Shown: piece after piece, positions 13,176 through 27,345 of the stretch
Position numbering within the stretch: position 1 is the stretch's first letter
How the letters are laid out: the number at the start of each line of letters is the position of its first letter
Assembly: GCF_000511355.1 (NCBI RefSeq)
Contig: NC_023135.1
Span: 770,371-834,370 of the forward strand
Origin: Leisingera methylohalidivorans DSM 14336
Lineage (GTDB): Bacteria; Pseudomonadota; Alphaproteobacteria; Rhodobacterales; Rhodobacteraceae
Reading direction: 5' to 3'
DNA: 64,000 bases
The notes under the pieces: model-generated
The model's database searches: none
The model's input: the letters and a program-made list of their open reading frames with translations, nothing else
Told to the model about the DNA's origin: nothing
Position numbers and translations under genes: made by a program

Positions 13176-16100
13176 GACGACTTAGCAGACAGTCTCGGAG
13201 TAGATCAAACTGATGACACCGGAAAACCCACAAAGGCTGGAAAAGTTACTAAAGGGATCACCGGTTTCATAGGAGCTGTGCAGGATGCTATTGATGGAGA
13301 TATCTCCTACGGTGATGCTGTCAGTATCGCGACCGATGTTGCAGCGACCACTGTAAAGAGCAATCCTGTTACGGATGCGACCGTGGGAGTGGCTGTCGAC
13401 GTCGCAAGAGAGTCTTTTGATACAGACGACGGATTGACATCCAAAGATATTGGGAGAATTGCAAGTGAAACCGTCGGCACCGTAGTCGGGGGGCTCATTG
13501 GTGGTTTACTTACAAGGAGCAAAACAGGTGCTGCTATTGGGGCTGAGCTTGGAAAATCTCTCGCTGGCCAGGCTCCAGCCACACCCGCAGAACGCGGCTA
13601 TCTGTCGGAAGGTTTCAGAGATGGAGGTTTGAACTTTGGTGGCGAAAGATCAAACCCTATCATACTGGCTCTCGAAACTAACAACGTCGAAATCACCGAA
13701 CTCTCCCAATCCCAGGTGTTCTTTGACAGCGATGGCGACGGGCTGAAGAACCGTACGGCCTGGGCGGCGGCTGGCAACGGGGTACTGTTCTATGACCCCG
13801 AGGGCTGGAACGAGATCCAGGAAGACTGGCAGTATATCTTCACCGAATGGGATCCGTCCGCGGCAAGTGATATCGAGGCGCTGGCCTCCTACTTTGATGC
13901 CAATGGCGATGGTGTCTTTGACGCCAATGATCCGGAGTTCAGCAAATTCAAGGTAATGGTCACCTTGGACGACGGCTCGACGGTTGTGCGAACGCTTGAT
14001 CAGGCGGGAGTTGAAACCATCAACGTGGTTGCGGACACCACGCGGATAGAGCTGCCGGACGGGTCGGTGATCACCGGGCAGACGATGTTCACCAAGACTG
14101 CCGCCGCGGGCGGCGGAACCGGTATGGTCGGCGATGTCACATTGGCCGGTGATGCAGCGAGCTACCGGGTTGAGGTTGAGCAGGACACAACGGACGCCAA
14201 CGGCATCCGCACGCTGGTGCAGGAGGCCTATAACGCCGATGGTTCGATTGCCTTCACGATGACCTCGGTTGCGGCGGGCGACGGCTCGCATACTGAAAAC
14301 AGCTATGACGATGACGGCGACGGGATTGTGGACCGGGTGCAAGTCATTGAAGTGTCCGCCGGAACGGGCGGTGCCAGGGTTGAGGATGTGCGGAACTACT
14401 CCGGTGCGAGCGTCACGGGCGGGGTATTTGAGAACCGCACCAAAACTACGGTCAGCACCGATGGTAAACTGACGGTGATCGAGCGCGACAGCATGGGCGG
14501 CGGCTGGTTCGATCAGCGCGAAGAGCGGGAGATCAACGGCAGCGGCAAGCAGACTATTACGGTGTCGGACCTGGCAGAGGACGGCTCGGTTCTGCAAGCG
14601 GTCACTTCGGTGACGTCTGCGGATGGGCTGACCCGCACGGATAAAGCAGACCTCGACGGCGATGGCGATCCCGATGCGGTTGAGCAGCACAACATTGTTG
14701 AGCACGCAGACGGCAGCCGGAGCGAGACCTGGCTGACCGGAAACGGCAACTACGGGCCCAGCAGCACCACAAAGCCCGGCACTCTTGCCTCCTCGGTCAC
14801 TATGGATGTCAGCGCAGACGGGCGGCACCGCGAGACCGAAACCGACTTTGACGGCAACGGACCCGTTGACCGCAAGGAGGTGAGTGACACCACCGTGAAT
14901 GCTGACGGAACCACGGTGACGCTGAGCGAGAGCTTCAACCGGGATGGCGATCTGATCTCCCGCAACCGGCAGACCCAGTCCGAGGACACCATGCATGTGG
15001 TGACCGAAATCGATGCGGATGGCGAAGGCGGCTATGAAACCAAAGTGGTGGATAACACCTCTGTGGACGGTAGCGGCGTCCGGACACAGACAGTTTCCAC
15101 CTACAACAAGGACGGCTCTTTGCGGCATGCGGAAAAGACGCTGCTGGAAGATGACAAAATCACCTCGAAGGCCTGGGCCGATGGCAACCAGGACGGAAGT
15201 TTTGCATCTAATGAGCGCGTTCGCGATGTGCAGGTCGATGCGGCGACACAGAACCGGATCACGGAAACCTGGGACCGGAATGCTGATGGCTCAATCAGTG
15301 CCTACAGCCAGACGACCACAAGTGAAGACGGGTTGCGTTCCGATGTTCTGACCGACCTGGATGGCGACGGGGACACCGATCTGAAGCTGTCGGACCACAC
15401 AAAGACACTTGCAAACGGCAATACGGAACGGGTTGTTCAGACCAAAAGCGCAAGCAATGCGACGCTGAGCGAGGTAACGACGGAAACCCGGGACACTGGC
15501 CTCCACAGCACCACCTGGAATGACCGGGACGGGGATGGCGTCACAGATTTCAAAACCATCGAATATATCTCGCCGGAAGCGGATGGCAGCACGCTGCACA
15601 ATATCCGGGTGTTTTCAGAAGACGGGACGCTGCTGTCCAAGACAATCACCACGGAAAGCGCTGACCGCCGGACGGCGACCACTGAGTACGATTATGATGG
15701 CGACAGCGCGGGCGGTGGCACGCAGTTTGACCGGGTTGTAACGCAAGCCGAAGATGCGAGCGGGGCCATCACGGTCACTGATCAACGTTTCTACAATGAT
15801 GGAACCCCTGCATCTAAGACCGTATCAACAGTGTCGGCTGACGGGCTGGTCCGGACGGTGTCCACGGATAGCAATGGTGACGGGACAGACGAGACCGTGG
15901 AGGAGGCCACCACCACGCTGCATTCGGATGGCCGGCGTACAGTTGATGCCATAGTTTCCAATGCAGACGGCAGCTTGAGAAGCCAATCGTTTGAAACGGT
16001 CAGCGTCAATGGCCGGGAGATGCTGGTCAAAAGGGATGATGACGGCGACGGAGAGTTTGAGAGTGCTCTGCGGACCACGACGGAATTCTTGGCGAATGGG

Positions 16101-17992
16101 CAATCCGTAACATCCGTTCAGTTGGAGGATGCCCAAGGCAATAAACTCAGCAAGACGCAAACCAGAGTGGACGCGGATGGCCTGAGAACAGTTGTCAAAA
16201 TCAATGAAGACGGGGACAATGATTTCGACCTCATTGAGACAACAGAAACCGCAATTTGGAACGATGGCACAACGGTTTCAACTGTCACGGTGACCGACGC
16301 GGGCGGCGACCCGCGCAGCGAAACGAAAATCACCACCAGCGACGACGGCCGGGAAGTCACAACAGACTTTGACCTGGACGGTAACGGGGGCACCGACCGG
16401 CGCGAGCATGCGGTCGAGGCCGATGATGGTGTGGTCACCCGGACGGTGACCGGTTTTGGCGCCAATGAGGCCGACATTCAAAGCCGGACGGTCACCGCAA
16501 CCAGCGCAAATGGGCTGGTGTCGCAAACCGAAAGCGATGCGGACGGCGACGGCGCCTTCGAGAGGGTCTACCGCACCGAAACCAAGCTGAATACTGATGG
16601 GTCGACGGAGACCACGACGGTCAGCGGCACCATTGCAGCGGATCCGAGCCAGGGGTTTGCCAAGGATGTTGTCATCACTTCGGGCGACGGGCTGACGATC
16701 ACAACCAAGACCGATCTCAACAACGACGGCACATTCGAGCGCCGCACCACCGTGTCCGAGGAACTGGCTGGCAATGGCGATGTTACACTGACCACCGAGG
16801 TCGAGGCGGCTAACAATTCCACTATTCTGAGCGAAGAGGTCAAGACTACGGCCGATGGCAAGACAGTCACCACCGGTTTTGACGCCGACGGCAATGGAGA
16901 ACTTGATGCCAAGACCACTGCAACGCTAGGTGATGATGGCACCCGCACCGCGACGACGGTCTATTATGCTGACAGCGGCGTGCAGATCTCCGAGGCCGAG
17001 GAGAGCGTCAGCGGCGACGGGCTGAGAAGCAGCTACAGCTTTGACAGCAACGGCGACGGCTTTGCCGATCTTCATTCCTCTAGTGAAACCGAGCTGGGGG
17101 AGGATGGCAGCCGGACCACGGTCACCGAGCACCGTGAAGGCAATTTCAGCAGCATCGGCCGCGAAGAATACTGGGTCAGCGATGACGGCCACGAACGCCG
17201 GTCCGAACTGGACCTGGATGGCGATGGCATCAGCGAGTTCCGCTCCACCGATGCCACCAGCTACGGGGCGGATGGCAGCACAAGCCGCTTTGCGGAAACT
17301 ATTGGCTCCACGCACACACGGACGTCGAGTGTTGAGAGCACGCTGAGCGGAAATGGCCTGCTGTTCAGCGAAAAGACTGACATGGACGGCGACAGCCACG
17401 ACGACCGGCATGAGCTGCGCAGCGACAGGGCTGGCGGCGGGTCAACCTGGGAGGCTCTGGAGTTCAGCAACGGCGGCGATCTGCAGCGCCAGGTGACGGT
17501 TGAAACCGCAGATGACGAGCGCAGCCAGATCACAGAGATAGACCGGGACGGCGACGGCCAGGCTGATCAATCCCTGGAGTGGCGGCTGGAGAGCGACAAT
17601 TCCACAACGCGTGTTTCCCGGGATCTGGGGCGCTATGGCAGCGTAGAGGCCGAAGTCCGCTCCAGCACCTCCGCCAGTGGTATGGTTCAGATGGCCGAGT
17701 TCGACCAGGACGGCGACGGCAGTACAGATTTTGAACGGCGGGTTGAAGTCAGTTTCAGCGGTGATGGGAGCATTCCTCTTGCCGGGGCAATCGGCACTTC
17801 TTTCAGTACGGAGCGGCCTGCAAATAAAGCCGGGGACCGGGTCACCGAGATTTCTGAGATCACCGGTGGCCGGGACACTTACAAAGAAGTGGTTGTTGAA
17901 GCGGCTGACGGTCTGAGCGCGCATTCCTATTTCGATATCGACGGCGATGGTGTCTTTGACGGGGAGGCTGACCTCTTTGGTGCTGGTAGCAG
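13176..17992 (+). pseudogene. Giant DxDGDG-repeat exoprotein (5' end lost, 3' end fused)
   Basis: The frame is open from the IS boundary to 18368 with no proper start; the first GTG (13278) has no clear ribosome-binding site. The first ~160 residues are Gly/Ala-rich with hydrophobic glycine stretches (VVGGLIGGLL), then a domain NPIILALETNNVEITEL...FFDSDGDGLKNRTAW seen in large roseobacter exoproteins. From about 14160 on there are many tandem ~65-70-residue units, each with an acidic DxDGDGxxD (EF-hand-like, probable calcium-binding) motif, e.g. DLDGDGDPD and DRDGDGVTD. Such proteins often carry C-terminal toxin domains. Here homology ends near 17992, where an unrelated sequence is joined in frame. 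Confidence 0.7.
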
Positions 17993-18368
17993 ATTCAAGA
18001 TCGATGTGTTCCTGAAAACGGTCCGCAACCTGATGCAGGGCGACGGAGCGGTCAGTGTAGTGTTGAGTGGCATCGAGAGCCTCTGGCAGATAGCTTCCTG
18101 TGACGCCCAGGTCACACGCCGCTACTGGCGGATGCCGTTGGCAGATGTCTCGCCGCATTCCGATCGCAAGGCGCTGATTGGTGTCATCACCAATTTTTGT
18201 ACCGCTGCTGGCATGCGACCGCCCTCGGAGGAGGATCTTGTGGATCGGCTCGTGCAGAGCTGTCATTCGTGCTCAGCGCAGCATTCTTTCAAAGTAACAA
18301 CGGTAGGCGGGAGTTGCAGCAACTCAGGGCAAACAGCTCCGAAAGAAAGGTGTCATAGATTGCTGTAA
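17993..18368 (+). pseudogene. TniB-like transposon ATPase fragment fused to the giant protein
   Basis: From about 17993 the giant frame changes character to FKIDVFLKTVRNLMQGDGA, VVLSGIESLW, TRRYWRMPLADVSPH, GMRPPSEEDLVDRL. This resembles the C-terminal half of TniB-type AAA transposition proteins (the stretch after Walker B, including the VVLSGIE sensor-like strand). No Walker A or B precedes it, so it is a fragment captured in frame. The last ~30 codons to the TAA at 18366-18368 match nothing I know. The family call is from pattern memory only. Confidence 0.45.
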
Positions 18369-18416: not shown

Positions 18417-18636
18417 TCAAGCGCGGCTCTTGGTGCCGCTTTCCATCAGATGCCGCTGGAAGCCCCGCATATCACCGGGTGCCGCGGTCCCGGGGGGATC
18501 GTCCGAGCCAGGCTGCAAACCGCTTGCAGGCCCGTAAGAGGCTGGTTTGAGACACCGGCCCCGGATTGCGCGGCGGCATATCGGCAATCATCCGGGCGCG
18601 AAGGGGTGCCGCCGGTGCGGACTGCTGAACGGTCAT
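18417..18636 (-). pseudogene. Tyrosine recombinase N-terminal fragment, frameshifted
   Basis: The minus strand encodes MTVQQSAPAAPLRARMIADM then SQTSLLRACKRFAAWLGRSP, the SAM-like core-binding domain typical of XerC/D-like integrases found in roseobacter mobile elements. A frameshift in a C/G run follows RSP; the +1 frame continues as APGDMRGFQRHLMESGT before a stop at 18417. The catalytic domain is absent. Together with the TniB-like piece next door it marks a decayed transposon. Confidence 0.6.
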
Positions 18637-18840
18637 CGGAAAACCCTCTGTCAACCGAGGCAAAATCACCGCGCCCGACAGCACGCAGCCGTCATCGAAA
18701 TCCGCAAAGCAAATCCCGGTTTCCCGAAACGCCAGCCACAGTCGCCCATATCGCGGAGCGATTTAGTGCTTGAGCCCTTTTCTGCCAATCAGTCGCTTTA
18801 TATTGTTCACTATTGGTTCTCCAGAATGAAAGGCAACGTG

Positions 18841-19410
18841 ATGGCTGTTGTGCGATGGCAGGATTGGGAAGGCCGGGGGCTTGAGCATTGCCTATGCCGC
18901 GAAACTGCCGATGGCTTGCTCCTCGAAGGTGTCGTTGCCGGGACCCGGCATGGAGAATATGGCGGACGCTACCTTGTGCGAACCGACGCTGGTTTCAGAA
19001 CGCGCGAAGTCCGTGTTCAATATGTTGGCGGCCCGTGCTTGCATGTGGAGGCTGACGGTACCGGAAGCTGGCGCGACGTGGTCGGGAACAGGGAGCTACA
19101 AGCCCTTGTAGGCTGTATTGACGTCGATATCGGCATCACACCTGCCACGAACACGCTGCCGATCAAGCGCCTGAAGCTCAAGGCGCAGGAGAGCAGGGAC
19201 ATCACTGCCGCCTACGTCCCGCTCCCGGATCAGATCGACGGTGACTTTTTGCCCCAACGGGCGGAGCAACGCTACACCTGTCTGACGCCAGATCATCGCT
19301 ATCGCTACGAGGGTTTGTTCCGCGCCTTCACGGCAGAGCTTGAAATTGATGAAGCTGGTCTTGTGCTCGATTATCCTGACACGTTCCGAAGGGTGGTTAT
19401 TACTGAATGA
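18841..19410 (+). CDS. Putative glycolipid-binding domain protein (DUF1089)
   Basis: This 189-aa protein has the DUF1089 (glycolipid_bind) signature: WQDWEGRGLEHC near the N-terminus, RYLVRTDAGFRTREVRV, an Asp/Gly/Trp turn DGTGSWRDV, GCIDVDIGITPATNTLPIKR, and YTCLTPDHRYRYEGLFRAFTAELEIDEAGLVLDYP at the C-terminus. The family is implicated in glycolipid binding, but its cellular role is unknown. The ATG at 18841 has AAGGCAAC upstream; an ATG at 18826 would add five residues. It lies alone between a recombinase remnant and the cold-shock genes. Confidence 0.8.
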   Translation: MAVVRWQDWEGRGLEHCLCRETADGLLLEGVVAGTRHGEYGGRYLVRTDAGFRTREVRVQYVGGPCLHVEADGTGSWRDVVGNRELQALVGCIDVDIGITPATNTLPIKRLKLKAQESRDITAAYVPLPDQIDGDFLPQRAEQRYTCLTPDHRYRYEGLFRAFTAELEIDEAGLVLDYPDTFRRVVITE

Positions 19411-21934: not shown

Positions 21935-22827
21935 GGCTTGGTTGCATAAATCTGCTGAAGGCCGTGCTTCCCTTTCCCCGGACAGACTTATCCTGCGGCC
22001 AAGGTATCCGGTATGCCAAGAGCCGAGTAGCGGTTGAGCACGGCGATGCGGACCTGAATCTCTGCGACCTGCCGATCGAAGTCCCGCGCCATGGGGCTTT
22101 GGCCGAGCAGTTTGATACAGTGCATTCAATCGCCGGGAAAATGATCCCCCCGATCATTTTCAGACCCTCCTCATATCCCGGCGCGGCGCCGGCGCTGGTA
22201 TCCGGTCAACCGTCGCCATAGGACGCGGCCCAGGTATTGTGCGGCCCGTAGAGCTTCGGTCCGTGCGATGGCACCCGCGCTTGCCGGCTTCCAGGGTTGG
22301 GCGTTCCTGCGGGATGGAATGATGGCGGCAGCACCACGGGCAGCGATTGCCCCCTGGCATTTCCGGGTGCCATATGCGCCGTCCGCGGTGACGCTGCCTA
22401 TCTTCTGTTCAGGCGGGATTTGGCCGGTGCCGCTCCGGTACGGCAGGCTCACGTTCAGGGTCTTCCGGCGGCGGCATCACCTGCAGCAGTCCGGCACGGC
22501 CCAATCCAGCCCAACCAGCGGCAGGAGGCTCTCGGCGAACCCCGCCGTCTGCCGAAGCGGCATGCCGAACATGGCCTTCAATGCCAGGCAGGTCTGGATC
22601 GCGGCGTCGCTGAAGCGCTGCTGCCTACCGCGCTTGCCGCTCGGCGGCGGCGTCCAGATCATCTCCGGATCGAACCCGATTGCAAGAGATCCGCGTCGCC
22701 TTGGCGCGTCGTTGCAGGACGACCAGTTCGTGGTCTTGTAATTTGCAGGGGCCCAACGGCTGATGACCCCCAGCTATCGTGCTGGTTTCGCGAGATGAAC
22801 CCCTCAGCAAATTTGTGCAACAAAGCC
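21935..22827 (-). mobile_element. Degenerate IS5-type element (second lineage)
   Basis: About 893 bp with inverted ends GGCTTGGTTGCATAAATCTG (left) and the reverse complement of TTTGTGCAACAAAGCC (right). The minus strand encodes scattered pieces of an IS5-type transposase: RQQRFSDAAIQTCLALKAMF (near 22620), IGSVTADGAYGTRKCQ (near 22390), GAIARTEALRAAQYLGR, and RDFDRQVAEIQVRIAVLN near the end. Stops, frameshifts and a missing middle (including a catalytic Asp region) show it is dead. It sits 12 bp past the end of the amidohydrolase operon. Confidence 0.7.
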
Positions 22828-22838
22828 GCGGAACGGCA

Positions 22839-23717
22839 TCAATCCACTGGCAAAATTGCCCGGCGCAGGCGGGTGAACGGGCGCTCGTGCTCCTTGCTCA
22901 GATAGTAGTTGCTGAGGGTGGTGACCGGTGCCATGGAGAGGGCGAAACAGGCACCCTGCTTCAGCTGATCCGAAAACCACGGCGCCTCATATTGCGGCGT
23001 CGTCGACCAGCTTTCGCGGATCGCCGCATTCTGCATGTTGACGATATTGGTGAAGGCCGAAGCCGGATCATCCGGGGTCTTGCGGTAGCTGAGCGCGATG
23101 GAGGAGAGCTCCACCAGTTCGGCGTGGGTGAACGGCAGCGCCGCGTTGCGGATCTCGACCGGCGGATGCTCCTGGCGGCGCATGATGCAGTAAACTGTCT
23201 GCCCGCCGCATGTCGGATCGCGGTCAGTGAGTTCGAGCGCATAGGGCTGGTTCGAGACGGCTATGCCGCCCGCGGTGCCGATGCTGATGCCGAAATCGCC
23301 GCGGTTGTCCTCGCGCGGGCTGCCCTCGAGCAGGTAAAGGTCCGCCGCCGCCAGCGTGCTGCCAAGGCTTTCGACCGAGGCTTTGAGCTGGGCGGCGTTC
23401 TGCCTTGCGGTTTCATTGTCCGGCGGGTTGGCGCCCTGGGCATAAATCTGAATGCTGTCGTAATTTTCCGCCGTCACAACCGTGAAAAAGGCCTTGATGC
23501 AATCGGGGCTGTCGAGATGCGCCAGCGTGGCCGAGATTTCCTCGCCCTTCTGCGCAACAACGATGGTGATGATGCAGGAGGTGGCGCTGTCCGAATACAG
23601 GGTCAGCCCCGGAACCAGCGCAGATTTCAGGTAATTGCCCTGATCGACAAAGCGGAAATCGCCGCCGGGTTTGGCTGCTGGCGGATTGTCATTGCGGTCT
23701 ATGGTGACAGGTATCAT
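22839..23717 (-). CDS. NTAN1-like N-terminal asparagine amidohydrolase family protein
   Basis: This 292-aa protein is the last gene of a four-gene operon. Residues 44-73 (DSATSCIITIVVAQKG, then SATLAHLDSPDC) resemble the eukaryotic NTAN1 core, where a Cys follows Thr or Ser and an HxD turn follows; here Cys48, His67 and Asp69. IQIYAQGANPPDN then matches the next strand and loop (VGGF-type region). NTAN1 deamidates N-terminal Asn, and CheD has a related Cys-His fold. The assignment is from motif resemblance. The start overlaps the previous stop (ATGA). No signal peptide is visible. Confidence 0.55.
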   Translation of the reverse strand: MIPVTIDRNDNPPAAKPGGDFRFVDQGNYLKSALVPGLTLYSDSATSCIITIVVAQKGEEISATLAHLDSPDCIKAFFTVVTAENYDSIQIYAQGANPPDNETARQNAAQLKASVESLGSTLAAADLYLLEGSPREDNRGDFGISIGTAGGIAVSNQPYALELTDRDPTCGGQTVYCIMRRQEHPPVEIRNAALPFTHAELVELSSIALSYRKTPDDPASAFTNIVNMQNAAIRESWSTTPQYEAPWFSDQLKQGACFALSMAPVTTLSNYYLSKEHERPFTRLRRAILPVD

Positions 23718-24538
23718 GCGGCGGCCCCCTCGTAGGTTTGCAGCGGATTGGTCAGCGGGTTGCCGTTGACCTGATATTCGCAGACCGGTGCGGCCCCGGG
23801 CGTTGCCGAGAACAGCGCCGTGGCCTGGGTCTGGAATTCCTCGTTCGGATAGTCGGTCTCGCGGCAGATCGAAAGCTCGCACCGGCCATAATACTGATCG
23901 GTCAGCACCGACATGATCCCGGCATGGGTCGGGTCCTGCTGCAGCAGAAGCTCAGCCCGCGACAGCCGCAGATAGGTTGAATGGTTGGCCGGGTAGTGGA
24001 TTGCTTCCGGCTGGATGCGGAAATGGTTGGTCGAGGCGAAATGCCCGGCATGGCGGATGATCCTGCGCACCGGCGCGTGCAGATAGGGGCGCGGCATATA
24101 TTCCAGGAAAATCGAAACCGGCTGGGTCTGCGCTTCATCCGCCCATCCGGTCAGCAGGCTGATGTCGGGCGCCGGAAAACCGGTTCCGCCGCCCATATCC
24201 TCGTAGAAACCTGCCAGGAAGTCCGCAGCGGCGGCGGCGGTGGTGAAGCTTGAGATGCTCTTTTCATAGGCCGTGAACAAGGCATCGGTCTGCGCATCGG
24301 TGACATAGTAGTTGGCGGATGTGGTATAGGCATCGGCGGCCACAAAGGACACGCCCGCGCTGTTGCTGCCGGCCCAGAGCCGCCCGCTGCCGTCTCCCCG
24401 CGTCAGGGCGGTGTAGCTGACAACGCCATTGCTGCCGGCCCTGGTTTGCGGTTCGTTGAAATCGGTGACCGGGATCAGGTCGCATTGCTTGAAGGTATGA
24501 ATGGTCTGGCCGTCAAAAACGGTTCCAATGGTACACAT
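23714..24538 (-). CDS. Putative Ntn-type hydrolase with N-terminal cysteine
   Basis: This 274-aa protein begins MCTIGTVFDGQTIHTFKQCDL. Removal of Met would expose Cys2 as an N-terminal nucleophile, as in penicillin V acylase, choloylglycine hydrolase and TANGO2/NRDE-like proteins. Supporting features are the KQCDL segment where Ntn-Cys enzymes have K-N-R-D, and LWAGSNSAGVSFVAADAY, which resembles the conserved N-x-x-G strand. Substrate unknown, presumably an amide bond. It lies between the Cys/His protein and the NTAN1-like gene, overlapping the latter by 4 bp. Confidence 0.5.
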   Translation of the reverse strand: MCTIGTVFDGQTIHTFKQCDLIPVTDFNEPQTRAGSNGVVSYTALTRGDGSGRLWAGSNSAGVSFVAADAYTTSANYYVTDAQTDALFTAYEKSISSFTTAAAAADFLAGFYEDMGGGTGFPAPDISLLTGWADEAQTQPVSIFLEYMPRPYLHAPVRRIIRHAGHFASTNHFRIQPEAIHYPANHSTYLRLSRAELLLQQDPTHAGIMSVLTDQYYGRCELSICRETDYPNEEFQTQATALFSATPGAAPVCEYQVNGNPLTNPLQTYEGAAA

Positions 24539-24570
24539 GGATAAATCTTTCGCTGAATGTCCGGAACGGG

Positions 24571-25308
24571 TCAGATGATGTTCACAGATCCATCGGGCAC
24601 GTACATGTAGCAGTAAAAGCCGTAGGTCACGGCGTATTCATTGTAATCCTTGCCGGTGCCGATGGTCTTGATCGGGCCCTGATTGACCCGCCAATTGGCC
24701 GTTGAGGGATCGGTGATCGGGTTGCCGGCAAAGTCGAAATTCGTCACCTGATCGCCGCCATCCTTCTGCGACCAGGACATCGGCGACAGCGTATCGCACC
24801 GGGCCCAGTGATAATCCCCGGGCCAGTTGGCCTCTGGGTCGCTGCCGATATTGCTTTCCGGCGGCGAGAACATCAGGGCGACATAATGCCCGCCTGCGCC
24901 GGCGCTGGCCGCATGTTTTTCGATATCGGCCAGCGTGGTGCCGACATAGACCAGCCCGTCGCTGACGGCATTGTCGCGCACGTGCTCGGCCGTGAAGTTT
25001 TCTGAAAGCGCCGGCGCTCCGCTGGCGCGGCCAGGCTGGGCGAAGGAATTGGAAGCGATATTGCAGCCATAGGCATAGCAGTTGTTGTTGGGCTGATACT
25101 TCGCCGACATGAAAGAGCCCTGGCAATCGCCTGCCGGGTCATAGCCGGTATTGGCATCGCGGACGGTGGCGGCATATTGCGGCACGCTGCCCCAGGCGGT
25201 CTCGACGTAGTTCGGTGCAATCAGCGCCCCGTCAGGCGCCTCCTCCCTGATGGAGTGGCGCAGATCGCCTTTGGCAACGCGGCCGCTGAATTTGAATGCA
25301 GGCGTCAT
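24571..25308 (-). CDS. Uncharacterised Cys/His protein (possible cysteine amidase or protease)
   Basis: This 245-aa protein, start ATG 25308 with GGGAGA upstream. The most striking block is NNNCYAYGCNIASNSFAQPG (74-93), then GGHYVALMFSPP (139-150) and PGDYHWARCDTLSPMSWSQK (163-182), then GNPITDP. The order Cys77...His141...His167 with aromatic neighbours resembles uncharacterised bacterial proteins with a C-Y-x-Y...FAQPGRA motif that look like papain- or NlpC-type enzymes. This is inference only. No signal peptide or membrane segment. Second gene of the operon, 22 bp after the asparaginase. Confidence 0.45.
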   Translation of the reverse strand: MTPAFKFSGRVAKGDLRHSIREEAPDGALIAPNYVETAWGSVPQYAATVRDANTGYDPAGDCQGSFMSAKYQPNNNCYAYGCNIASNSFAQPGRASGAPALSENFTAEHVRDNAVSDGLVYVGTTLADIEKHAASAGAGGHYVALMFSPPESNIGSDPEANWPGDYHWARCDTLSPMSWSQKDGGDQVTNFDFAGNPITDPSTANWRVNQGPIKTIGTGKDYNEYAVTYGFYCYMYVPDGSVNII

Positions 25309-25330
25309 GGTATTCTCCCGGGTTATGAGG

Positions 25331-26911
25331 TCAGTTTTGCGAGTAAAGCGTGGCAGAAAGCGTTTGGCCGGAATAATTGTAAACGCTGAGAGTGAGGTTG
25401 CCGCTGCCATAGGAGCCGGAGATCATCAGCACCGATGAGGCACCGCCGCTGACACCGGTATCTGTGGCCCAGATGGGTTCGTTGTCGGCGCTGCGCAGCA
25501 CCAGATTGCCGTCATTCTGCATGAACAGGCTGCCCGGATGGCCTGCGGCCTGACTGCCGAAGGGCGCCCACAGGAAAGTCCCGTCGCTGGCGCTAAGCAC
25601 CGGGCCGGAGACCGGATCATTGCTGAGGGTCGCACTGCCATCCAGCGCCATGATCGACTGGCCGGCCAGCAGCTCGCTGTTGCTGCGGCTGTCCAGGCGG
25701 CTGACATTCTGGATCTCTCCGAACAGGTTGAGCTGGATAAGGTCCTTGACCTGGTCCAGCGTCCAGCTGTTGCCAGCCGCGGCGGCCTGCAGGATCATGG
25801 TCTTGGTAAAAGCCGCCATCGGCGTCATGTCCGAGGCGCTGAGCGCCCCGACTTCGGGCAGCCAGGCCCCCGCAGCATAAGCCGAGTCATTCACGGTTCC
25901 GGCAATCACCTGGGTGCTGTCGACAATCACGACATCGGCATTATCAGCGGCTTTCAGCGCAGCGTATATTGCGCCTTGGGAAGCGTTGTCCGGGTTGCCG
26001 GAGGGGAAATTGCCTTCGCCATAAGATTCCAGCACCAGCCCCGTCAGGCCGGTGCCCGCCGCTGCAGTGATGAGATTGGCAATGATAGCAGTGCTGCTGC
26101 TCGTGCTGTAGGCGGCTGGAAAGGCGTTGAACTGCATCACCGGGAAATCATCGATGGTATCAGAGATGGCGGTTAGCTGCGCCTGCGCCGCGGCCAAGGC
26201 GGTGGCGTTGTCCAGGCTGACGCTGGTGCTGACCGGATCGGGCAGCATCCGGCCGGGATATTGCGTCAGCCTTATGCCGTATTGCGCCAGCGGCGGGTAA
26301 TTGGGCGAGTTGAACGCCACAAATTCGCTGGCATTCACTTTCAGCACCCGGTCGCCGCGGTAAAGGCAGCTGTCGAAATAGACCCCGACTTCGGGAATGC
26401 CGAGCCGGGCGCAGGCCACCGCGCCGCAGAAGTTCTGAAAGGCATCTGTGTTGAAGTTGAGCGTCAGATCTGACGTGTCCCCGGGCGTGGTCTCGGCAAA
26501 CATCGGCACTTGCGAACCGGTGATGATCACCGGTTTGGACAGCAGGGCGGTTCCAAAACCCTGGGCGTCAAAGACATTCAGCAGAAACGGCAGGGCAGAG
26601 CCGGTGAAATCCATCGAATCGGTGCCGTGCAGAATGACAAACCCATCATAATCAGCATAATTATCAAGGATATAGCCTGCCATCAGGCACCAGTCGCTTG
26701 GCTGCAGATTGGTGCTGTCGAGTGTTCCGGTCGAGCTTTCCGGAAACACCAGATCGGTCTCGTAAACCAGGGTGGTGTCCGGGAACTCTTCCGCCAGGAC
26801 GGGGTCGAGAATAGTCTGCGCCGCCGCCGCGAAATCCGCAGCTGACATCGGGGCGAGCGGATCGCCGACACAGCTGATCGTGCCGCCGGTGTTAAGGATG
26901 CAAACTTTCAT
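25331..26911 (-). CDS. L-asparaginase-like amidohydrolase with C-terminal bulb-type lectin domain
   Basis: This 526-aa protein has residues 1-~400 as an asparaginase/glutaminase: ILNTGGTIS places the nucleophile Thr at 11, and VILHGTDSMDFTG gives the second Thr97-Asp98 pair. The enzyme normally frees ammonia from Asn or a related amide. The extra C-terminal part (412-526) has the B-lectin pattern LLAGQSIMALDG, LFMQNDGNLVLRS, PIWATDT, a mannose-binding fold in plant lectins and bacteriocins. I do not know this fusion. The start at 26911 is chosen with GGAG and GAGG upstream; an ATG at 26926 is possible. First gene of the operon, no signal peptide. Confidence 0.75.
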   Translation of the reverse strand: MKVCILNTGGTISCVGDPLAPMSAADFAAAAQTILDPVLAEEFPDTTLVYETDLVFPESSTGTLDSTNLQPSDWCLMAGYILDNYADYDGFVILHGTDSMDFTGSALPFLLNVFDAQGFGTALLSKPVIITGSQVPMFAETTPGDTSDLTLNFNTDAFQNFCGAVACARLGIPEVGVYFDSCLYRGDRVLKVNASEFVAFNSPNYPPLAQYGIRLTQYPGRMLPDPVSTSVSLDNATALAAAQAQLTAISDTIDDFPVMQFNAFPAAYSTSSSTAIIANLITAAAGTGLTGLVLESYGEGNFPSGNPDNASQGAIYAALKAADNADVVIVDSTQVIAGTVNDSAYAAGAWLPEVGALSASDMTPMAAFTKTMILQAAAAGNSWTLDQVKDLIQLNLFGEIQNVSRLDSRSNSELLAGQSIMALDGSATLSNDPVSGPVLSASDGTFLWAPFGSQAAGHPGSLFMQNDGNLVLRSADNEPIWATDTGVSGGASSVLMISGSYGSGNLTLSVYNYSGQTLSATLYSQN

Positions 26912-27011
26912 GACCTCAATCTCCATCAAAATACCCTCTTAGGGCGAATGCTTTGGTAATGCTGCATTTAAATGGTGCATTTTCTGCCTGACCGCACAAA
27001 CGAATTGAGGT

Positions 27012-27345
27012 TCATTTTTTAATCAACGTGGTTTTCGGATGTTGGTGCGAGCTCCAGTCCTGGTAAGGCTCTGCAGAACTGGGCCAGAGAGAGTGCGTCA
27101 TTGATGTCGTTCTTTTGCTTTTCAGAGCATCGGGCAAGTTGGTGGGCATTGTTGCAGAACTCATGCTTGGGGCGTGACATCCCCTTTCCCCGCTGACGTC
27201 ACGCCACGCGAACGATCTCGGCGGCGCCGGGCGCAAGCCGAATACGCCATCTGACCCTAGCGCTGGCTGCTCTTGGAGAGTTCTCAGAAAGTTACTTGTG
27301 GGATTGAGTGCGTTTGGGTAGCGTGCCGGGGAATGAACTAAACTA
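27012..27345 (-). other. Decayed transposase-like remnant
   Basis: The minus strand contains MSRPKHEFCNNAHQLARCSE followed by KQKNDINDALSLAQFCRAL, which is reminiscent of the K-x-N-D-x-x-D-A region of IS110-type transposases, but nothing else of the gene remains. The outer ~90 bp (27252-27345) is repeated in inverse orientation at about 30990-31080, supporting a mobile-element end. Family call is tentative. Confidence 0.35.

Follow-up and report, generated by a model that had tools for sequence, protein, structure and literature searches.

In a 64,000-nucleotide stretch of the Leisingera methylohalidivorans DSM 14336 genome (contig NC_023135.1, positions 770,371 to 834,370; hereafter the window), we identified four minus-strand genes, here called ansL, g2, ntn and ntan in their order of transcription, that are a conserved, mobile gene set. 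The set is real, and we did not find it in the open PMC literature searched, in line with the statement in an earlier reading of this DNA from its sequence alone (hereafter the sequence-only reading) that no described system has these genes. Judged by protein family, three of the products are predicted amide hydrolases, and the fourth, which has conserved Cys, His and Asp residues only, is probably one too. To this extent the earlier idea that all four chemistries cleave amide bonds was partly right, and a shared amidase function of the four genes is plausible. We give even odds (a probability of about 0.5) to the reading that they form a mobile, self-contained amide hydrolase cassette, composed of two two-gene modules, that dismantles or inactivates an Asn-containing, possibly N-acylated, peptide. 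The most valuable part of the finding is the bacterial NTAN1-like enzyme encoded by ntan, which permits a direct test.

A linked and mobile gene set

The four genes run tip to tail with gaps of 22 bp (ansL/g2) and 32 bp (g2/ntn) and an overlap of 4 bp (ntn/ntan), as the sequence-only reading had described, and their GC contents are similar, at 0.604-0.618 (Table 1).

Table 1. Features of the four-gene set and its surroundings (window positions)
Feature	Position	Strand	Length	Description
Four-gene set	22839-26911	minus		transcription order ansL, g2, ntn, ntan
ansL	25331-26911	minus	526 aa	type-I-like asparaginase with C-terminal bulb-lectin (MMBL) domain
Lectin domain of ansL	25334-25678	minus		residues 412-526
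g2	24571-25308	minus	245 aa	candidate cysteine hydrolase
ntn	23714-24538	minus	274 aa	putative N-terminal-cysteine (Cys2) Ntn-type hydrolase, AAT/C45 kind
ntan	22839-23717	minus	292 aa	bacterial NTAN1-like, predicted N-terminal asparagine amidohydrolase
Mobile unit as preserved in the window	22825-27069			DNA common to same-genus copies with other flanks (blastn)
IS5-type element remnant	22171-22824			abuts the 3' side of ntan

We compared 19 genome loci, which were found through g2, so that counts of co-occurrence are g2-selected. ansL adjoins g2 in all 19. Both ntn and ntan are present in 11 loci (L001, L002, L003, L006, L007, L012, L013, L014, L015, L016 and L018), one locus (L005) has only ntn of this pair, and neither gene lies in the examined stretch of seven (L004, L008, L009, L010, L011, L017 and L019). 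The core is the ansL-g2 pair, and ntn and ntan make up a second two-gene module. A whole-genome search with the ntan profile, which covered the genomes of 13 of the 19 loci (L014 not among them), gave a match in six, five of them within the cassette and one a distant copy on another contig of the L019 genome. All four genes are also present on a Vibrio plasmid (L025) and in L044. The sequence-only reading had asked whether the genes co-occur across genomes in the same order; they do co-occur beyond this strain, but in three orders, namely, ansL-g2-ntn-ntan in the Leisingera group, ntn-ntan-ansL-g2 in Pseudomonas, Marinomonas, Vibrio and Atopomonas, and g2-ansL-ntn-ntan in Desulfoluna. In Polyangium (L005), ansL and g2 form one open frame with no stop between them, which could reflect a genuine fusion or loss of the stop codon.

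Among 5.8 billion proteins, g2, ntan and ntn have 388, 137 and 228 homologues, respectively, at E ≤ 1e-3. For each protein, 120 homologues were listed, and from these 63 (g2), 68 (ntan) and 67 (ntn) were hand-picked for alignment together with the window protein. In the listed clusters, 48 of the 117 distinct source-contig sizes for ntan recur exactly among those for ntn (mean 2.3 and maximum 8 after jittering), 13 are common to ntan and g2 (jittered mean 1.4, maximum 6) and 12 to ntn and g2, while 9 occur in all three lists; the jitter control permits zero shifts and, therefore, slightly overstates chance. Seven Vibrio plasmid records match the cassette DNA solely in its ntn part, and the one inspected carries ntn alone. 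On a Vibrio coralliilyticus plasmid (L026, 12001-12822), ntn stands alone where the related plasmid L025 has all four genes.

The cassette is rare and patchy. Of 101 genomes of relatives, 4 have g2, the genome of the window among them; g2 was further detected in 3 of 398 genomes of the window's phylum (one match, G354, being weak or distant) and in 6 of 298 genomes of Pseudomonas, the genus of L016 (two, G541 and G601, being weak or distant). G356 of the phylum survey and G500 of the Pseudomonas survey probably both stand for the L012 genome. In the phylum of Polyangium, g2 was found in 1 of 235 genomes, and in that of Desulfoluna, ntan was found in 1 of 148, in both cases the starting genome itself. 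Scans of viral contigs with the g2, ntan and ntn profiles gave no relatives.

Within the flanks examined using blastn, three same-genus copies have only the mobile unit or part of it in common with the window, the shared stretch running to 27069 in L003, 27037 in L002 and 26271 in L001; the exception is a stretch of 120 bases at the L002 edge, plus its repeats. L002 and L003 have 4.8 kb in common. Because these copies share little beyond the cassette, the cassette is mobile as a unit within the genus. On its downstream side the window cassette passes into IS5-type sequence, in which a transposase DDE fragment lies at 22174-22452 (22.1 bits versus a cut-off of 23) and positions 22700-22830 match IS5-annotated sequence in plasmids. 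Two of the copies are damaged, with a shortened ansL in L001 and a broken ntn in L003. Movement as a unit, the separate occurrence of the modules and the damaged copies would all fit four independently useful genes that are carried along by a single mobile unit and share no function. The four genes stay together through changes of order across several classes, however, a pattern not readily expected from hitchhiking on a single unit; we regard this explanation as distinctly improbable.

Several neighbouring features were recorded. The window contains a 1696-aa open frame with no Pfam match at 13278-18368, a stretch with an AT skew of ~0.2, and a gene for a putative glycolipid-binding protein (PF06475, E 1.5e-48) at 18547-19410. 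In the Pseudomonas loci L016, L017 (ansL-g2 only) and L018, the cassette, by eye, follows what look like dnaA, dnaN, recF and gyrB, not all of which appear in every list of open reading frames (ORFs). A 622-aa protein with no Pfam match is encoded at 2246-4117 of L012, ~2.5 kb upstream of that Pseudomonas cassette.

Families and conserved residues of the four proteins

The residues named in the sequence-only reading, i.e., Thr11 and Thr97-Asp98 of ansL, Cys77, His141 and His167 of g2, the MCTIG start with Cys2 of ntn, and Cys48, His67 and Asp69 of ntan, are all present, and the conservation of g2, ntan and ntn across 388, 137 and 228 homologues, respectively, speaks against chance. At the level of families, the asparaginase, AAT and NTAN1 Pfam models passed their cut-offs, while B_lectin scored below its own and g2 matched none.

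Human NTAN1 converts asparagine at protein N-termini, and it was the top match of ntan in both a profile search (E 8.8e-11) and a Foldseek search (1.8e-10). The Pfam NTAN1 model (PF14736) matches ntan with 25.0 bits versus a gathering cut-off of 24 in two stretches, of which residues 41-81 are the best. NTAN1 also ranked first by structural Z score (19.9), and ntan shows a CNF1/YfiH-like core with an appended C-terminal lid, as NTAN1 does. ntan does not fit CheD, a small single domain without a lid, for which the Z score was 10.0. According to PMC7022378, mutants of NTAN1 at Gln51, Ser69, Thr73, Thr74, Cys75, His92, Ser254, Thr255 and Glu260 are less active or inactive. The first five of these align with Gln26, Ser42, Thr46, Ser47 and Cys48 of ntan, and the last four with His67, Ser238, Thr239 and Glu244; the nine ntan positions are uniform in 69 of 69 rows, except for position 239 (Thr in 57, Ser in 12). 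Thus, Cys48 and His67 of the NTAN1-like core in the sequence-only reading hold, but Asp69 is variable (62 of 69 rows), and the predicted third catalytic residue of NTAN1 type is Ser42 (69 of 69), not Asp69. Since ntan retains these nine mutationally tested positions, it can be asked whether bacteria deamidate N-terminal Asn, and the genes linked to ntan supply substrate context. No open PMC title on a bacterial NTAN1 was found. A search of 398 genomes with PF14736 gave zero matches and also missed the window's own ntan, so that this negative is uninformative. A stand-alone NTAN1-like protein with 35% identity to ntan is encoded at 6206-7030 of L045, in a gammaproteobacterial metagenome-assembled genome that carries the ansL-g2 pair of L019 on a separate contig.

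In the bacterial N-degron pathway, the Bpt transferase adds Leu to N-terminal Asp, and ClpS delivers the product to ClpAP. The NTAN1-like nature of ntan would suit a tertiary branch of this pathway, in which ntan makes N-terminal Asp from Asn for Bpt, ClpS and ClpAP. Consistently, the ATE_C (Bpt) family is present in 13 of 14 cassette genomes and in 6 of the 7 with an ntan match; this is, however, a small excess over the background of 66 of 100 genomes in the window's phylum. Moreover, Desulfoluna has ntan and no ATE_C match, 7 of the 13 other cassette genomes have no ntan match, and such a branch leaves ansL and g2 unexplained. Together, these points make an N-degron branch very unlikely as the role of the set.

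ntn is a predicted Ntn-type hydrolase of the AAT/C45 kind. Its match to Pfam AAT (PF03417; 24.5 bits versus a cut-off of 23.2) is confined to residues 157-253, and the match to the NCBIfam C45 proenzyme model (NF040521) has 31.2 bits, below the cut-off of 85. The ntn profile gave nothing under E 0.1 against the PDB (best E 0.13). Cys2, Lys17, Asp20, Asn171 and Arg226 are kept in 68 of 68 rows and Asn59 in 67 of 68; the essential set of cysteine Ntn hydrolases, as given in PMC3289653, is Cys2, Arg18, Asp21, Asn82, Asn175 and Arg228.

ansL carries both asparaginase domains (PF00710, E 3.4e-35; PF17763, E 3.7e-18), and its best solved relatives in a PDB search are type I asparaginases, while it scores below the NCBIfam cut-offs (asnASE_I, 155.2 versus 260.5 bits). 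In an alignment of the window protein with those of 20 loci, 21 rows in all (L001 was left out because its copy is shortened), Thr11, Asp65, Ser66, Thr97, Asp98 and Lys191 are the same throughout, and Thr97-Asp98 lines up with the HGTD segment, and Lys191 with the TK segment, of solved type I enzymes; we take Thr11, Asp65-Ser66, Thr97-Asp98 and Lys191 to be the catalytic positions of the asparaginase family. The bulb-lectin assignment of residues 412-526 agrees with a match to plant agglutinins in the PDB (1jpc, E 7.8e-7), while Pfam B_lectin (15.4 bits, gathering cut-off 32.4) and an NCBIfam putidacin model (E 3.4e-6; 26.6 versus 275 bits) remain sub-threshold. Two unnamed PHROGs families match ansL, and the better match falls within its lectin domain. 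According to PMC3585409, the sugar pockets of MMBL domains are formed by QxDxNxVxY motifs. The ansL lectin domain has one recognisable motif of this type. Of the 21 rows, 16 keep it intact; it is altered in the window, L002, L003 and L004 (final Tyr to Arg) and in L008 (Gln to Glu). Because its only recognisable motif is degenerate, sugar binding by the window ansL appears doubtful, and the earlier proposal that the lectin tethers a complex to sugars is unsupported for this copy.

No signal peptides were seen, by eye only, on the cassette proteins, and the products are probably cytoplasmic. In Pseudomonas, lectin-like bacteriocins are released although they lack a signal peptide, and the cassette could by analogy be a released antagonistic set, whose lectin would attach to competitor or host glycans and whose hydrolases would damage the target. 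The lid residues of NTAN1 for a free N-terminal Asn that ntan retains argue against this, as do the single rather than tandem lectin domain, with its degenerate motif in the window, and the neighbourhoods, whose ORF lists, read by eye, showed no immunity, lysis or secretion gene that recurs (no dedicated search was made). PADLOC gave one chance match (E 0.033). In open PMC, the lectin-bacteriocin papers found leave asparaginase unmentioned, and we found no system that combines an asparaginase with a B-lectin or mannose-binding lectin domain (broader searches were by title). We consider an antagonistic role unlikely.

g2 represents a protein family, at least 388 members strong, to which no Pfam model could be assigned: neither Pfam nor NCBIfam matched g2, a Pfam search of 64 family members gave stray matches only, and the g2 profile had no sequence match in the PDB. 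The proposed Cys77/His141/His167 site is kept, together with Asp192, in 64 of 64 aligned rows. Among three distant relatives, His141 is replaced by Gln in one and His167 is present in all, and this makes His167 the better candidate for the catalytic histidine. The predicted structure (pLDDT 75) has low confidence at the candidate nucleophile; its structural matches are weak and mostly of papain-like fold, ranks 1-3 among them. The glutamine amidase NTAQ1, whose triad is Cys28/His81/Asp97 (PMC4214742), came into question for g2 through a DYH motif; we found no Pfam match to NTAQ1 among the 64 members and none in the structural rows viewed (50 of 110 in one search). Distant g2 relatives with an added N-terminal part, in which the motif YSGRxNPxWE or similar was seen by eye, are encoded at 7130-7987 of L042, 6729-7604 of L043 and 7563-8393 of L046; the cassette was not found in the examined stretch of these loci, one of which lies close to SOS-response genes on a Rhizobium plasmid.

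Possible joint function

The reading as a self-contained amide hydrolase cassette, which we favour, draws on homology, conserved catalytic residues, linkage and mobility within the genus, and from these we infer the activity and cellular location of each enzyme, the order of the steps, the substrate and the purpose. ntn would remove an acyl or amide cap via Cys2, and ntan would deamidate the freed N-terminal Asn to Asp via Cys48/His67/Ser42. g2 would cut the peptide or deamidate a side chain via Cys77/His167, and ansL would turn released Asn into Asp and ammonia. As a net result, an Asn-containing, possibly N-acylated, peptide would be dismantled or inactivated for nitrogen gain or detoxification. 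More tentatively, and at less than even odds, ntan may be a genuine bacterial NTAN1-type amidase in a moving cassette that, with the asparaginase-lectin and a new cysteine hydrolase family, forms a dedicated system that processes peptides or proteins with N-terminal Asn, either as an Asn N-degron step or in detoxification of Asn-bearing natural products.

The genes could instead serve in tailoring of, or self-protection against, an Asn-containing natural product. In Bradyrhizobium (L009, 4347-9939), ansL-g2 comes after a co-directional row of genes whose products are, by Pfam, a carrier protein, an esterase and an AMP-binding enzyme and, by eye, a ketosynthase-like protein, and a condensation-adenylation nonribosomal peptide synthetase lies alongside; L010 (5563-9939) resembles this locus by eye. 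Such biosynthetic neighbours are, however, found at only 2 of 19 loci, one of them confirmed by Pfam in a search of flanking proteins that covered 4 of the 19 loci and 10 proteins in total, and we consider a biosynthetic role quite improbable.

Comparison with known systems

Human NTAN1 (PDB 6a0e, 6a0f, 6a0h and 6a0i) and ntan have the fold with a C-terminal lid and the Cys/His/Ser triad in common, and six further tested substrate residues of NTAN1 are kept in ntan, two of them as Ser/Thr variants. ntan differs in that it is bacterial, has ~15% identity to the human protein in the structural alignment, and lies in an operon with an asparaginase-lectin; its activity is predicted. Type I asparaginase (AnsA; PDB 2ocd and 7r6a) has both domains and the catalytic residues of ansL, which additionally has the lectin domain, inserts and sub-cut-off NCBIfam scores.

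Compared by eye, the Lys/Asp/Asn/Asn/Arg set of ntn, which also has Cys2, is placed similarly to Arg18/Asp21/Asn82/Asn175/Arg228 of cysteine Ntn hydrolases (choloylglycine hydrolase, for example). The Pfam AAT match is common to ntn and the AAT/C45 acyltransferase-hydrolases, but ntn is under the NCBIfam C45 cut-off. g2 resembles papain-like cysteine peptidases (PeiR, staphopain and the ComA peptidase) in the order of Cys, then His, with weak structural matches, and differs from them in the lack of a sequence match and in a model of low confidence at the candidate nucleophile. Finally, the lectin-like bacteriocins putidacin L1, LlpA and pyocin L1 resemble ansL in the B-lectin family and in having no signal peptide seen by eye; however, LlpA has tandem MMBL domains, whereas ansL has a single one fused behind an asparaginase, with a degenerate motif in the window copy.

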